A DNA stretch of 56,554 bases. Origin: Thermodesulfobacteriota bacterium (GTDB lineage: Bacteria; Desulfobacterota; BSN033; UBA1163). Numbering within the stretch: position 1 is the first letter of the stretch; every line of letters begins with the position of its first letter. Shown in pieces: positions 40,792 to 46,957 of the stretch. Where the stretch lies: NCBI GenBank assembly GCA_026415035.1, contig JAOAHX010000021.1, positions 1-56,554 of the forward strand. Direction: 5' to 3'. The notes beneath the pieces were generated by a model, which saw nothing but the letters and a program-made list of their open reading frames with translations, made no database searches and was not told the origin of the DNA. A program made the position numbers and the translations under genes.

Positions 40792-43770
40792 GTGGCTGAA
40801 AGGATCGAACTCGACATCAACCGGATCGAAAATTTCCTCTACGAACTGAAGGGATGCGTCCGGTGCAAGGGGTGCCTCTGGGTCGATCATATCTATATGC
40901 CAGGGGTCCGGTTCTCCACGAGGTGTCCCAGCGCCGCCCACTTCCTCTACGACGCCTTTGGCGCTTATGGAAAGATGAGGATAGGGCTGGGTTATGTAGA
41001 AAGGCGACTCCCTCCCTCCGAGACGCTTCGCCATCTCTTCTACGCCTGTCCCCTCTGTGGCGCCTGCGATGTGGGATGCAAAAGGAACCTCGACCTCGAG
41101 ATCGGTCTCGCCCTGGAGGCGATTCGGGTGAAGCTGGTCAAGGATGGCCTGGGTCCCATGCCGGTCCATCGGGAGATCGCCCATCAGATCGAAAAACAGG
41201 GGAATCTCTTCGGGCTTCCTTACGAAGGGAGAAAGGGATGGCTCTCCCGTGCCATCCGTCTGACCGAAGGAGCGAAGGTCCTCTATTTTGTCGGGTGTTA
41301 TGGTTCCTATTATCATTCTGAAATCCCGCAGGCCACGGTGAAGATCTTGGAGGCCTCCGGGGTCCCTTTTCAGCTCATGGAAGATGAGAGGTGCTGCGGA
41401 AATCTCCTCTTCTCGGTCGGGATGATTGAAGAGGCCAAAAGAGAAGCCGAGCTTAACCTCCAGAGCATCAGAAAGTCCGGAGCCACCACGCTTTTGACAA
41501 CCTGCGCCGAGTGTTACCGGATGTGGAAGGTCGACTACCCCAAAATCTTCGGCCTCTCCACCCATGAACTGGGTTTCGAAGTGAAACATCTGGCCGAGTT
41601 TGTTTACGAGGGGATAATAGAGGGGAGGATAAGTTTCAGCCATCGTTTGGAGAAGAGGGTTGCTTATCACGACTCGTGCAGCCTTAGCCGGCTGAGCGAA
41701 CCCTGGACGAGATGGTCGGGAGAACGGAGGCGATGGGGTGTGCTCGATCCCCCATTGGTTAGGAGGCGCGGGACTTTCGGGGTCTATCATCCCCCCAGGG
41801 AAATTTTGGATCGGATTCCGGGAATACACTTGATGGAGTTCCACAGGAATAGAGAGAATAGTTTCTGTTGCGGGGCAGGCAGGGGGACCTTGGAGGCCTT
41901 TCCCGATTTTGCCCTTTGGTCTGCGGGCCAGAGAATAGAAGAGGCCTTCGACCTTGGGGCCGAAGCCATCGTTTCGGCCTGCCCTCGCTGCAAGAGAAAT
42001 TTTCTAAACGCGGCGAAGGAGAAAAAGGGAGAATTACAGCTCCTCGACCTTTCGGAGGTCATTTCCTCAGCGATGGGAGGAGGACCCATGGGGGTTCGAG
42101 CCGCGAGGTGTCGAAAGATGATACCGAAAGAGGCTTCAAAGGAATTGGAATCGATCGTGGGGAGGGAATATTTTACGATGGATCCGGTGCTCTGCGAGGG
42201 ATACCGGGCAGGCCCCCGGGGATATGAATGCGGGCTTGGCTATGAGAAGGTGATGGCCCGGGTTCCAGCGGCGGTCGTCCTTCCGGCGGAGACCCCCGAG
42301 GTCCAGGCAATCGTCCAGACGTGTTATCGATTTCAGATCCCCTATGTCCCTTACAGCACCGGTTTCTATGGTGCCAAATCGGCACCCCACGTGGAGGGAG
42401 CCCTCCTTATCGATCTCAAGAGGATGGCCCATTTCGAGATCGACGAGGACCACCTTATGGCCGTGGTAGGGCCCGGGATCGTCTATTCCCAGCTTCAGGC
42501 CGAGGCCCTCAGGAGGGGGATGTACGTCCTGGTAGGAGGTGGAGGGGGGCAGGTTTCGGTCATCGCCAACATGATCAATGACGGGACCTCTCCCCATAGC
42601 TACCGCTTTGGCCTTGCCCAGCGAAGGATCCTCGGGACGGAGCTCGTCCTTCCCGATGGAGAGGTCCTCCGCTTAGGGTCTCTGAGCACGGAGGAGGACC
42701 CCTTTTGGGGAGAGGGTCCGGGCCCCGATCTTCGCGGGCTGTTGAGGGGAGGGACGGGCTGGAGAGGGTCCTTCGGAATCGTCACGAAGATGGCCCTGAA
42801 GCTGATGCCCTTCCAACCCGAACCCCTTCGACCCGAAGGGATTTCGCCCCACACCGCCTTGAGGCTTCCGCAGGAGAGGGTGAAATGGGTCAATATCCGG
42901 ATGCCAGACCGGGAGTCGCTGGTAAAGGCCGTCTACGAGATCGGAAAGGCCGAGATCGGGGCGGCCGTGATGAGGGTTCCGCTTTTCTGGAGGACCGTGG
43001 CGAGGTCAGAAAGCAAGGAGGAGTTCTGGAAACGGTGGTCCGAGGAGAGCGAGGAAAGCATCGAGAAGTTCCATCTCCTGAGGGTTCTCCTCATCGGATA
43101 TGGATCTGAAGAGCAGATGGCCTATGAAGAAAAGGTGCTTTACGATATTGTTAACGAGCTCGGAGGGGAAATCCGGAGGACGAAACCCACCGACGAGTCA
43201 TGGTTCAAGAATGCGGACTCGGCCGGGATGTGGCTCATGTGCGGAGGGTACCTTTCGGTCGAATATAGTTCCGATACTCTAAACCATGCGATCTTACAGG
43301 GAGAGGCCATGGCCGATTTGAAACAGGGCTACACGCCTCCCCTGATGCCCGACTACGGGGAGAGGGGATGGTTTCAAAGCATCGAGATGGGGCATCTGGG
43401 TTATTCGGAGTATCTGATCTATTGGGACCCCGAGGAGGTTTTGGAGGCGGCAGACCGGTTTTTCTTGAAGAGCCTTGAGGAAAACATTCGAAATCGATTC
43501 TATACCGCGATGCTCGGTCCCAATCAGCCCCTCTCTCTCACCGGCCCGGCGTATGGTCCCAACTATCATCGTTGGCTCCTTGCCATCAAGAGCCAGTTCG
43601 ATCCTCAATGGCTCTGTCATCCGCCCCACCCCCTGGCCCACGATCGATTCCTTGAAAGAAGGGGGTGGGCGAGGCCGAAAGAAAGTTCAGAGGGTTCCCC
43701 GACCGGTGAAGAAAGGGGGCGGGAGGGCGAGGTCGACCAGAGGTTGACAGGGAAGAGCGAAAGGGGATAA
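40792..43770 (+). CDS. Fusion of HdrD/GlcF-like iron-sulfur protein and FAD-linked oxidase, 992 aa
   Basis: Residues 20-100 bind two [4Fe-4S] clusters (C22, C25, C28 with C45-Pro; C86, C89, C92, C96). Residues 165-410 hold two CCG repeats (RCCGN and CAECYRMW; SFCCGAG and CPRCKR). Residues 450-960 are a second PCMH FAD oxidase (VLPAETPEVQAIV; STGFYGAKSAP; SVIANMINDGTSPHSYRFG; TGWRGSFGIVTKM). A 27-residue Arg/Trp-rich insertion at 302-328 splits the second CCG motif. The start is GTG 40792 with AGAGGA just upstream. The protein resembles a one-piece GlcD-GlcF and could move electrons between a hydroxy acid or phenolic substrate and a thiol or quinone acceptor. Confidence 0.85.
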   Translation: MAERIELDINRIENFLYELKGCVRCKGCLWVDHIYMPGVRFSTRCPSAAHFLYDAFGAYGKMRIGLGYVERRLPPSETLRHLFYACPLCGACDVGCKRNLDLEIGLALEAIRVKLVKDGLGPMPVHREIAHQIEKQGNLFGLPYEGRKGWLSRAIRLTEGAKVLYFVGCYGSYYHSEIPQATVKILEASGVPFQLMEDERCCGNLLFSVGMIEEAKREAELNLQSIRKSGATTLLTTCAECYRMWKVDYPKIFGLSTHELGFEVKHLAEFVYEGIIEGRISFSHRLEKRVAYHDSCSLSRLSEPWTRWSGERRRWGVLDPPLVRRRGTFGVYHPPREILDRIPGIHLMEFHRNRENSFCCGAGRGTLEAFPDFALWSAGQRIEEAFDLGAEAIVSACPRCKRNFLNAAKEKKGELQLLDLSEVISSAMGGGPMGVRAARCRKMIPKEASKELESIVGREYFTMDPVLCEGYRAGPRGYECGLGYEKVMARVPAAVVLPAETPEVQAIVQTCYRFQIPYVPYSTGFYGAKSAPHVEGALLIDLKRMAHFEIDEDHLMAVVGPGIVYSQLQAEALRRGMYVLVGGGGGQVSVIANMINDGTSPHSYRFGLAQRRILGTELVLPDGEVLRLGSLSTEEDPFWGEGPGPDLRGLLRGGTGWRGSFGIVTKMALKLMPFQPEPLRPEGISPHTALRLPQERVKWVNIRMPDRESLVKAVYEIGKAEIGAAVMRVPLFWRTVARSESKEEFWKRWSEESEESIEKFHLLRVLLIGYGSEEQMAYEEKVLYDIVNELGGEIRRTKPTDESWFKNADSAGMWLMCGGYLSVEYSSDTLNHAILQGEAMADLKQGYTPPLMPDYGERGWFQSIEMGHLGYSEYLIYWDPEEVLEAADRFFLKSLEENIRNRFYTAMLGPNQPLSLTGPAYGPNYHRWLLAIKSQFDPQWLCHPPHPLAHDRFLERRGWARPKESSEGSPTGEERGREGEVDQRLTGKSERG

Positions 43771-43801
43771 ATTGGAAGTAAAGTTTCCGAGGAGGGTTCC
43801 T

Positions 43802-44062
43802 ATGGCCGCCGAAGAGATCAAAGTCTATACGACGCCCACCTGACCCTATTGCAAGATGGCGAAGGAGTTCCTTTCGCAGAAGGGCTATGCCTTTACCGAG
43901 TACGACGTGACCAAAGATCGGGCCGCCCTCGATGAGATGGTGAGGATCTCGGGGGCCCGGAGCGTCCCGGTCATCGCCGCCTGCAACGAAGTGATGATCG
44001 GCTTTGATAAGGCCCGCCTCGAGCAGATGCTGAGCTGCCTGAAACAGAGGACAGAGATTTAA
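43802..44062 (+). CDS. Selenocysteine-containing glutaredoxin (in-frame TGA, Sec-Pro-Tyr-Cys active site)
   Basis: Frame from ATG 43802, preceded by GAGGAGGG (43789-43796), reads 13 codons, TGA at 43841-43843, then runs open to TAA 44060-44062: 86 residues if TGA is Sec. The context is VYTTPT-U-PYCKMAKEFL, the exact place of the first Cys in the CPYC motif, and the rest is a full thioredoxin fold with the cis-Pro loop SVPVI and GFDKARLEQML. Gene callers would report only residues 19 onward (from 43856). It follows the FeS/FAD fusion by 31 bases. It should be a dithiol/selenol oxidoreductase; its substrate is unknown. Confidence 0.9.
43859..43877 (+). promoter_or_regulatory. Candidate bacterial SECIS hairpin for the glutaredoxin TGA
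   Basis: GCGAAGG (43859-43865) pairs with CTTTCGC (43871-43877) in a 7-bp stem with one G-U pair and a 5-base loop AGTTC. It begins 15 bases after the TGA at 43841-43843, inside the coding sequence, which is the normal position for a bacterial SelB-binding element. The loop carries a G as expected, but bacterial elements vary widely, so this is a positional prediction. Confidence 0.6.
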
Positions 44063-44114
44063 AATCTTGGGGCAAGAAATTCGGATTCCGAAGCTTTATT
44101 GAAATCCGGACCTC

Positions 44115-44132
44115 GAGGGAAGCCCTCTTTCT
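44115..44132 (+). terminator. Weak hairpin with T-rich tail after the selenoprotein gene
   Basis: GAGGG (44115-44119), loop AAG, CCCTC (44123-44127) then TTTCT. The stem is short (5 bp) and the T-run is broken, so termination would be weak. It is the only candidate between the plus-strand operon and the convergent UvrA-family gene. Confidence 0.3.
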
Positions 44133-44169
44133 CAAAAAGGGAGGGAGGAGGTTCGGAAGGGCCCATCGG

Positions 44170-44204
44170 TTCGGATTTCGAACTGCCGATTTCGGATTTA
44201 TGAA
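44170..44204. repeat. Degenerate heptad tandem at the uvrA-family 3' end
   Basis: Seven-base units TTCGGAT, TTCGAAC, TGCCGAT, TTCGGAT and TTATGAA run from 44170 to 44204, related by reverse complement to the AATCCGA tandem at 13551. The last unit overlaps the stop codon of the minus-strand UvrA-family gene. Confidence 0.6.
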
Positions 44205-46957
44205 TTTTGAAGCCTCCGTCTCAAAAACTGCCCGGTGTAAGATCGAGGCGAGGCCATGATCGCCTGAAGGTCTCCCTCGGCGACGATCCGGCCGCCTTCC
44301 TCCCCGCCTTCGGGTCCGAGGTCGATGATGTAATCGGCCCGGCGAATCAGGTCGAGGTTATGTTCGATGATCAGGAGGCTGTGGCCCTGGTCGAGAAGCT
44401 CCTCTGCGGCGTTCAGGAAGACCTCGATATCGGCCAGGTGGAGGCCGGTGGTGGGTTCGTCGAAGATGAAGAGGTTCCTCCCTTTCGCACCCTCCCCGAG
44501 ATGGAGGGCCAGCTTGAGCCGCTGAGATTCTCCTCCGCTCAGGGTATTGGTCGGCTGTCCCAGGGTGAGATAGCCCAGGCCGACCTTCTTTAAGAATTCC
44601 AGTTTTGAGACGATTTTAGGGTGATTCTGGAAGAAGGAGAGGGCCTCCTCCACGGTCAGGTCCAGGACCTCGGAGATGTTCTTGTCTTGGTACCGGACCT
44701 CCAGGATCTCGGCGCGAAATCTCTTTCCCTCGCAGGCCTCGCAGGTGATGATCACGTCCTCAAGGAATTGCATCTCCAAAACCTGGATGCCCGCGCCTTG
44801 GCAGGCTTCGCATCTCCCTCCGGCCGTATTGAACGAGAAGTGGCGGGGCAGAAAACCGTACCGCTTCGCCTCCCGGGTTCTGGCAAAGAGGTCCCGGATG
44901 TCGCTGAAGACCTTGATATAAGTGGCTGCATTCGACCGGAGGCTTTTCCCGATGGGGGATTGATCCACCAGGATGAGGTCATCGATCTTCTCCAAGCCCT
45001 CGATCGAATCGAAGGAACCCCTCTCGAGGCCCGCCTCTCCATTCCGTTTCCATTTGAACCCCGCATAGAGGATGTGGTGAACCAGGGTCGTTTTTCCGGC
45101 GCCCGAGACGCCGGTGACGCAGGCCATGACATTGAGGGGGATCCGGACGTCCACCCCTTTGAGATTATGGTGCCGGGCGTTTCGGATCAGAATCCAACCC
45201 GATGGGTTCCGGTGGGGCTTGAACATTCCCGAGCAGAGCCCATCTCTCAGGTATCGGGCAGTGAGGGAATCCTCTCTATTCAGAAGGGCTGAGACCTCCC
45301 CCTCGAAGACGACGTTTCCGCCATCCTTCCCTGCACCGGGGCCGAGATCGATGATGTGATCGGCAGACCGGATGACCTCGGGATCATGCTCGACCACGAC
45401 GATCGTATTCCCCCTCGCCTTGAGATGGCCCAGGGCCTTGAGCAGACGGTGGGTATCCCTCGCATGGAGACCGATGCTCGGCTCGTCAAGGACGTAGAGC
45501 GTATCGGTGAGGCCCGATCCCAAGGCCCTCGCCAGGGTGATCCGTTGATACTCGCCGTTCGAAAGGGTTCGGGTCTGCCGGGAAAGGGTGAGATAATCCA
45601 GTCCCACATCGAGCATGAACCGGATCCGGTCCCGAATCTCCTTGAGGAGCCTTCCGGCGATCTTCCTCTGAAATTCCCCCAGGGAGAGGCCCTCGAAAAA
45701 CGCGTAAAGGTCGGAGACGGGCATGTCCGAAAGCTGGGCGATGTTCTTTCCGGCCACCCGGACATAGAGGGCCTCTTCTTTGAGACGGGTGTTTTGGCAG
45801 GTGGGACAGGGCGTATAATCTCGATATCTGCTGAGAAAGACGCGGTAATGGACCTTGTAGCGTTTGCCCTCCATCCATTCGAAGAACCCCTTGAGGCCGA
45901 TGAATTCTTCTTTCCCCTGGAGGAGGACCTCCTTCTGTTCGGGGGAGAGCTCCTGGAAGGGCCTATCGAGGGGGATTCGAAAACGACGGCAGGCCTTGAA
46001 AAGGTAGTCATAAAGGTCTTCGTAAGCAGGCGTGTTCCAGGGGGCGAAGGGCCTCTCCTTGAGGCTCTTTTTAGGATCGGGGATCACCTTCTGCCAGTCG
46101 ATCCCGATCACCCTGCCGAATCCCTGACAGGTGGGGCAGGCTCCCAGGGGGCTGTTAAAGGAGAAGAGGAGGGGTTCGGGTTCGGCAAATTCTCTCCCAC
46201 AGAGATTGCAGGAAAAGCTACGGTTGAATCCCATTTTCCGGCCGTCTTCGGTGATCACCTCAATCCTTCCCCCTCCCAAAGCGAAGCCGCTCTGGACGGC
46301 CTCGTTGAGCCTGGAACGGTTCTTCTCTTCGGTGGAGATCCTGTCGATGATCAGATGAAGGGTCTGACCTTTCTTGAAATGGGAGGGGGGGAGATCGGTC
46401 AGGTTGAGGATTTCTCCCTCTTGGTAGATCCGGTAATATCCATTCTGGATCAGTTCGTTGAGCTTTGTTTCGGCCTTCTCTTTTGGCAACGGGACAGGAG
46501 AGGTGAGGATCACCTTCTGGCCTGGATAACGGGTTAAGATCGTCTCCGTCGCACTTTCCACGGTATCTCCCGAGACCTTGACCTCACAGGCTGGGCAGAA
46601 GACCTCGCCGATTTTGGCGAAGAGGAGCCGAAGATAGTCGTAGATTTCAGAGGCGGTGCCCACGGTAGAGCGGGCGTTCTTTACCGTGTTCTTCTGTTCG
46701 ATGGCGATCGCAGGAGGGATGCCTCGTATGGCCTCCACATCGGGCCGGTCCATCTTCTCGAGGAACTGTCGGGCGTAGGTCGAGAGGGACTCGATGTAAC
46801 GCCTCTGCCCCTCGGCAAAGAGGGTATCGAAGGCGAGGGTGGACTTGCCTGAGCCTGAAACCCCCGTGATGACGGTCGTCTTCCCCCTCGGAATCCGACA
46901 GGAGATATTCTTCAGGTTGTGGGATTTGGCACCGATGATTTCGATGAATTTCTCCAT
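44198..46957 (-). CDS. UvrA-family excinuclease ATPase, probably a UvrA2-like paralogue
   Basis: A 919-residue twin ABC ATPase. Walker A motifs are GVSGSGKST (about 35) and GVSGAGKTT (about 600). Zinc-binding CxxC pairs occur in CPAC, CNLCGREF, CPTCQGFG, CPTCQNTR and CEACQGAG/CEACEGKR. The first signature reads LSNGEYQRI and the second LSGGESQRL. SPIGKSLRSNAATYIKVF departs from the canonical SPIGRTPRSNPATYTG-type sequence, and IEQKNTVKNARSTVG also differs, pointing to a paralogue rather than housekeeping UvrA. ATG 46957 is preferred over an upstream in-frame start at 47050. It is divergent from an ABC-2 exporter pair. Confidence 0.85.
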   Translation of the reverse strand: MEKFIEIIGAKSHNLKNISCRIPRGKTTVITGVSGSGKSTLAFDTLFAEGQRRYIESLSTYARQFLEKMDRPDVEAIRGIPPAIAIEQKNTVKNARSTVGTASEIYDYLRLLFAKIGEVFCPACEVKVSGDTVESATETILTRYPGQKVILTSPVPLPKEKAETKLNELIQNGYYRIYQEGEILNLTDLPPSHFKKGQTLHLIIDRISTEEKNRSRLNEAVQSGFALGGGRIEVITEDGRKMGFNRSFSCNLCGREFAEPEPLLFSFNSPLGACPTCQGFGRVIGIDWQKVIPDPKKSLKERPFAPWNTPAYEDLYDYLFKACRRFRIPLDRPFQELSPEQKEVLLQGKEEFIGLKGFFEWMEGKRYKVHYRVFLSRYRDYTPCPTCQNTRLKEEALYVRVAGKNIAQLSDMPVSDLYAFFEGLSLGEFQRKIAGRLLKEIRDRIRFMLDVGLDYLTLSRQTRTLSNGEYQRITLARALGSGLTDTLYVLDEPSIGLHARDTHRLLKALGHLKARGNTIVVVEHDPEVIRSADHIIDLGPGAGKDGGNVVFEGEVSALLNREDSLTARYLRDGLCSGMFKPHRNPSGWILIRNARHHNLKGVDVRIPLNVMACVTGVSGAGKTTLVHHILYAGFKWKRNGEAGLERGSFDSIEGLEKIDDLILVDQSPIGKSLRSNAATYIKVFSDIRDLFARTREAKRYGFLPRHFSFNTAGGRCEACQGAGIQVLEMQFLEDVIITCEACEGKRFRAEILEVRYQDKNISEVLDLTVEEALSFFQNHPKIVSKLEFLKKVGLGYLTLGQPTNTLSGGESQRLKLALHLGEGAKGRNLFIFDEPTTGLHLADIEVFLNAAEELLDQGHSLLIIEHNLDLIRRADYIIDLGPEGGEEGGRIVAEGDLQAIMASPRSYTGQFLRRRLQNS

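Follow-up and report, generated by a model that had tools for sequence, protein, structure and literature searches.

Structure of the locus and its reading frame

The window, the 56,554-nucleotide stretch of DNA from a Thermodesulfobacteriota bacterium that was analyzed here, corresponds to contig C21 in a MAG of 3.06 Mb and 97% completeness, whose closest named relatives are MAGs of Syntrophaceae / Deltaproteobacteria. On its forward strand lies a short frame that begins with an ATG at 43802, is interrupted by a TGA at 43841-43843 (codon 14) and ends with a TAA at 44060-44062. Translation of 43802-44062 with read-through of the TGA, which is the only in-frame stop before the end, yields a product of 86 residues, MAAEEIKVYTTPT-U-PYCKMAKEFLSQKGYAFTEYDVTKDRAALDEMVRISGARSVPVIAACNEVMIGFDKARLEQMLSCLKQRTEI, that matches Pfam PF00462 with E=7e-19. 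The features of the gene, henceforth grx, and of its immediate surroundings are as follows:

43744..43773, + strand: grx promoter, TTGACA, 18-nt spacer, TAAATT; the sole promoter-like site in 43600-44250
43789..43796, + strand: ribosome-binding site GAGGAGGG
43802..44062, + strand: grx, predicted Sec-containing YruB-type glutaredoxin, 86 residues, active site U14-P-Y-C17
43841..43843, + strand: TGA codon 14, predicted to be read as selenocysteine
43859..43877, + strand: putative bacterial SECIS hairpin with GU in the loop; its stem has 7 bp here, against 8 bp in the majority of relatives

An earlier sequence-only reading of this DNA had described an otherwise intact frame with TGA at codon 14, a strong ribosome-binding site in front of its ATG, and the loss of the active site in standard gene calling. 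All these elements are indeed present in the sequence: the GAGGAGG ends 5-6 nt upstream of the ATG, AGGAGG-type sites likewise stand in front of the ATG in orthologues, and the earliest ORF without an internal stop in this frame, 43856-44062, codes for only 68 aa and lacks the active site. The gene thus represents a well-supported case of a selenoprotein shortened by standard gene calling.

Conservation of the TGA codon and the selenocysteine machinery

To place the TGA in an evolutionary context we drew on an orthologue search covering 59 genomes. Within the family, 15 of the 16 other members, all but G005, yielded an orthologue with 84-92% identity and exactly one TGA. When 26 distinct Sec genes were aligned, drawn from this family, from other classes and from a single Chloroflexi MAG, every one of them had TGA at codon 14. 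Three close homologues (L037, L066 and L067) have TGT or TGC at this position, and alignment with these, which had been suggested as a check of UPYC against CPYC, places their catalytic Cys precisely at the TGA codon.

These observations bear directly on two explanations that dispense with selenocysteine. The first is that the TGA replaced an original Cys codon through mutation or error, leaving a broken or mis-assembled gene. The standard code does give a stop at codon 14 and the window is a MAG contig; but the identical TGA recurs in the 26 orthologues, which come from independent assemblies and have otherwise intact frames, and this excludes both a sequencing error, including the misreading of TGC or TGT as TGA that would have undone the earlier proposal, and a random nonsense mutation. 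Together with the synonymous constraint on the stem codons described below, it renders a pseudogene exceedingly improbable. No more credible is the second, in which the ribosome terminates at the TGA and initiates afresh at Met19 (43856) to give the 68-residue protein. The corresponding ORF exists, but codons 1-18 are conserved, including the motif VY.TPT-U-PYC, as are the ribosome-binding site and the ATG at codon 1; moreover, residue 19 is Ile in L020, L022, L023 and L024, and the Cys homologues L066 and L067 use the full length. A changed genetic code, with TGA standing for another amino acid, has nothing in its favor and is effectively excluded because TGA is the ordinary stop of many genes in the window, besides which the genome has the full Sec pathway.

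This pathway comprises all of selA, selB, selC and selD, the four genes whose presence in the same genome had been proposed as a test: a tRNA-Sec (selC) detected with 79.4 bits and also called by ARAGORN, SelB, SelA (E 6e-189), and two copies of selD, each of which itself has an in-frame TGA in a motif reading CGUAAKIGP or GUAAKIGP. Among the 15 other same-family genomes carrying grx, 13 have a tRNA-Sec; it was not found in G004 and G009 of this family or in G019 and G020 outside it, all of which are incomplete or fragmented MAGs. UGA 14 would accordingly be decoded as selenocysteine by SelB and Sec-tRNA in conjunction with an SECIS hairpin within the gene. By eye, one of the two Sec-type selD genes (L150, G000:C24:22000-37500) is flanked by a YeeE/YedE-like transporter gene and by TusA/YedF-like and class V aminotransferase-like genes, and is likely to lie in a selenium-metabolism cluster.

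The SECIS hairpin

Folding recovers the hairpin that had been noticed after the TGA: in the window it has 7 bp and the loop AGUUC, with a free energy of -9.0 kcal/mol for the 25-nt element, and lies 22 nt after the UGA. Published limits for bacterial SECIS elements are a loop of 3-9 nt, a stem of 4-16 bp, a G among the first two loop nucleotides, a distance of 16-37 nt from the UGA and an MFE <= -7.5 (PMC13188914), and the window hairpin falls within all of them. In most relatives the stem comprises 8 bp at 19-26/30-37 (GCGAAAGA / UCUUUCGC, with the U of UGA as 1) and the loop is GUU. Pairing is found in 93% of the cells of the 26 aligned sequences, as against 33-71% when the partner strand is slid. 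Over the whole 48 nt the window hairpin is not more stable than shuffled sequences (z -0.75).

The pairs are almost invariant and no covariation was seen in the hairpin across the 26 sequences; for this reason we turned to synonymous constraint in its place. The codon of Leu24 is CTT in 26 of 26 Sec genes, whereas Leu43, taken for comparison, uses five codons and CTT only once. Likewise, all the genes have GAG for Glu22, and 23 of 25 in each case have GCG for Ala20 and TCG for Ser25. Of all stretches of six codons, 20-25 shows the largest excess of synonymous identity (permutation P 0.0007, 16 family genes), and since neighboring codons, which share the same tree, are free to vary, relatedness does not explain the frozen state of those in the stem. 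Hence, synonymous change is strongly constrained in the stem codons, and this codon choice is stronger evidence for the hairpin than the pairing itself. Frozen codons within an otherwise drifting gene make the SECIS signal unusually clear.

Parts of the SECIS stem codons are also kept in the three Cys forms L066, L067 and L037, with CTT in all of them, and their genomes still have a tRNA-Sec. Because of these two features, the Cys forms would fit recent Sec-to-Cys replacements, as judged from the gene and genome sequences.

Family assignment and relationship to known selenoproteins

Profile comparisons place the product, scored with C for U, marginally above the curated cut-off of TIGR02196 (YruB; 89.2 vs 88.55 bits), and more comfortably above that of NF041212 (Uxx-star; 75.1 vs 66 bits). 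It falls below the cut-offs of the UXX-star families 1, 2 and 3; in the case of family 1 (NF041114, 54.8 vs 72 bits) the score agrees with the architecture, as that family has a C-terminal Sec-x-x-stop and the window protein ends QRTEI-stop. The scores against Grx3 (60.7 vs 90 bits) and TIGR02194 (NrdH; 51.9 vs 85.75) are likewise below the cut-offs. NrdH-redoxins resemble the window protein in size, fold and probable feeding by thioredoxin reductase, but differ in that no ribonucleotide reductase neighbor was seen here. The AlphaFold model (pLDDT 79) has a b-a-b-a-b-b-a thioredoxin fold.

In the PDB, the closest match in sequence (E 4e-16) as well as in fold (Foldseek on the AlphaFold model, E 2e-6) is cGrx1 of Clostridium (Alkaliphilus) oremlandii (7c10, 7c12), a native, characterised selenoprotein glutaredoxin (PMC7642778). 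The two share the glutaredoxin fold, the UPxC motif and Sec as the nucleophile, which in the window protein is predicted; they differ in that cGrx1, at ~44% identity, comes from the Clostridia and has UPHC, whereas the window protein has UPYC. In the UPYC redox center, Sec14 would act as the attacking nucleophile and Cys17 as the resolving residue. The partner of cGrx1 is a Sec-MsrA; such a partner was looked for, and the one MsrA found in the window's genome has Cys (GCFW).

That surveys of selenoproteomes already know Sec-glutaredoxins, as the sequence-only reading remarked, is borne out by the literature: lists from 2006 onwards include them, with Geobacter sulfurreducens and Alkaliphilus among the bacteria named (PMC1794560), a Grx selenoprotein family also figures in another survey (PMC9312934), and the UxxC glutaredoxins have been catalogued with biochemical support (PMC9312934, PMC13188914). 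This survey family has PF00462, UxxC and the occurrence of Sec in Desulfobacterota-type anaerobes in common with the window protein, the comparison with the G. sulfurreducens protein being at the level of the family. The protein type is therefore one already described and characterised in other anaerobic bacteria, to which the window gene adds a new member. Taking together the Sec machinery, the conserved TGA, the aligned Cys homologues and a SECIS hairpin with synonymous constraint, we identify the locus as a Sec-containing glutaredoxin of the YruB / Uxx-star subfamily with a probability of about 0.96, in agreement with the sequence-only reading.

The window's genome also codes for a second glutaredoxin-like protein (L133, G000:C13:69704-69892, minus strand), which resembles UXX-star family 1. 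Its first Sec is now Cys (GCPYT) and its C-terminal TGA is kept (GGSUDI-stop), while both codons are TGA in the relatives L134-L136, L138 and L139.

Promoter and gene neighborhood

In the window grx follows, on the same strand and after a gap of 31 bp, a gene for a 992-aa oxidase (40792-43770), a fusion of Fe-S/CCG (HdrB/GlpC-like) and FAD-binding_4 (GlcD-like) domains. The two halves are separate ORFs in the congener G006, and elsewhere it is mostly the Fe-S/CCG half alone that matches. The stop codon of the oxidase gene falls inside the -10 box of the grx promoter. Promoters of the TTGACAATT...TGTGTAAAAAT type are found upstream of grx in the relatives L047, L050, L054, L055 and L057-L060, and judging by these sequences the promoter before grx is a conserved, apparently sigma-70-type element.

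This arrangement raises the question of whether the FAD/CCG oxidase pair is the specific partner of the Sec-glutaredoxin in an oxidase-linked redox relay. The short same-strand gap and the presence of the pair upstream of grx in G006 (L056) as well speak for such a link. However, adjacency of the pair to grx is confined to these two genomes: across relatives with enough flanking sequence (e.g. L049, L050, L053-L055, L057, L058 and L060), grx usually has a divergent DUF434/DUF5616 gene and, where the contig reaches, a convergent uvrA downstream as its neighbors, and the pair does not adjoin it. Further, five genomes (G001, G002, G003, G010 and G014) have grx and no oxidase match at E<=1e-30, grx retains its own promoter, and in G006, where a similar promoter directly follows the oxidase gene, two small ORFs intervene between promoter and grx. 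We consider a specific partnership improbable, and synteny across relatives led us to reject the oxidase operon as a conserved functional unit. Of the earlier claim of an operon with flavoprotein oxidases, the adjacency on the map thus stands, and conservation of the arrangement does not; nor can the proposed novelty of this context be upheld for a neighborhood limited to two genomes in which grx has a conserved promoter of its own. The simplest reading would be that grx already had its promoter when the oxidase genes arrived in front of it. By eye, the two small ORFs in L056 (9300-10000) resemble a DUF4258/DUF2283 toxin-antitoxin-like pair.

Potential functional role of the Sec-glutaredoxin

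Returning to the Sec-glutaredoxin itself, a classical glutathione-dependent Grx3 function finds no support in the low Grx3 score, and neither GshB nor either type of GshA was found in the window's genome, a result that bears on glutathione synthesis and not on import. One thioredoxin reductase was found there. At seven more distant orthologous loci with a Sec- or Cys-glutaredoxin (L061-L067), grx lies directly upstream of a gene for a 395-aa protein with an N-terminal glutaredoxin domain, which in the copy scanned (L063) is fused to a TrxR/AhpF-like reductase. Genes for rubrerythrin, desulfoferrodoxin, ferritin, an FprA-type flavodiiron protein or cytochrome bd occur in several of these clusters, and in the Chloroflexi locus L068 the gene immediately upstream codes for rubrerythrin.

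In the window, neither the fusion nor the oxidant-defence genes adjoin grx. The portions of its genome examined yielded no Grx-TrxR fusion; what matched was a stand-alone TrxR, 37% identical across the reductase domain, and, weakly, a sequence with 24% identity. Given that no Gsh genes were found, the presence of TrxR, and the fusion and defence-gene clusters of relatives, we tentatively favor, as the most likely role, a GSH-independent redoxin. It would receive electrons from thioredoxin reductase or a Grx-TrxR fusion and hand them on to oxidised proteins or peroxidases, serving a strict anaerobe in its defence against oxidants; this role is carried over from the relatives' loci.

A broader and more doubtful possibility is that these proteins constitute a GSH-independent Sec-redoxin branch of anaerobic Desulfobacterota, kept reduced by a Grx-thioredoxin-reductase fusion dedicated to it and serving rubrerythrin/desulfoferrodoxin-type oxygen defence. 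We found no description of such a circuit of Sec-redoxin, fusion and oxygen defence in the literature searched, and grx may in this sense point to syntrophic anaerobes having a redox circuit that is free of GSH and centered on Sec-glutaredoxins. Two further Cys residues, at 61 and 79 or nearby, are absent from the other homologues aligned and conserved in most Desulfobacterota orthologues.
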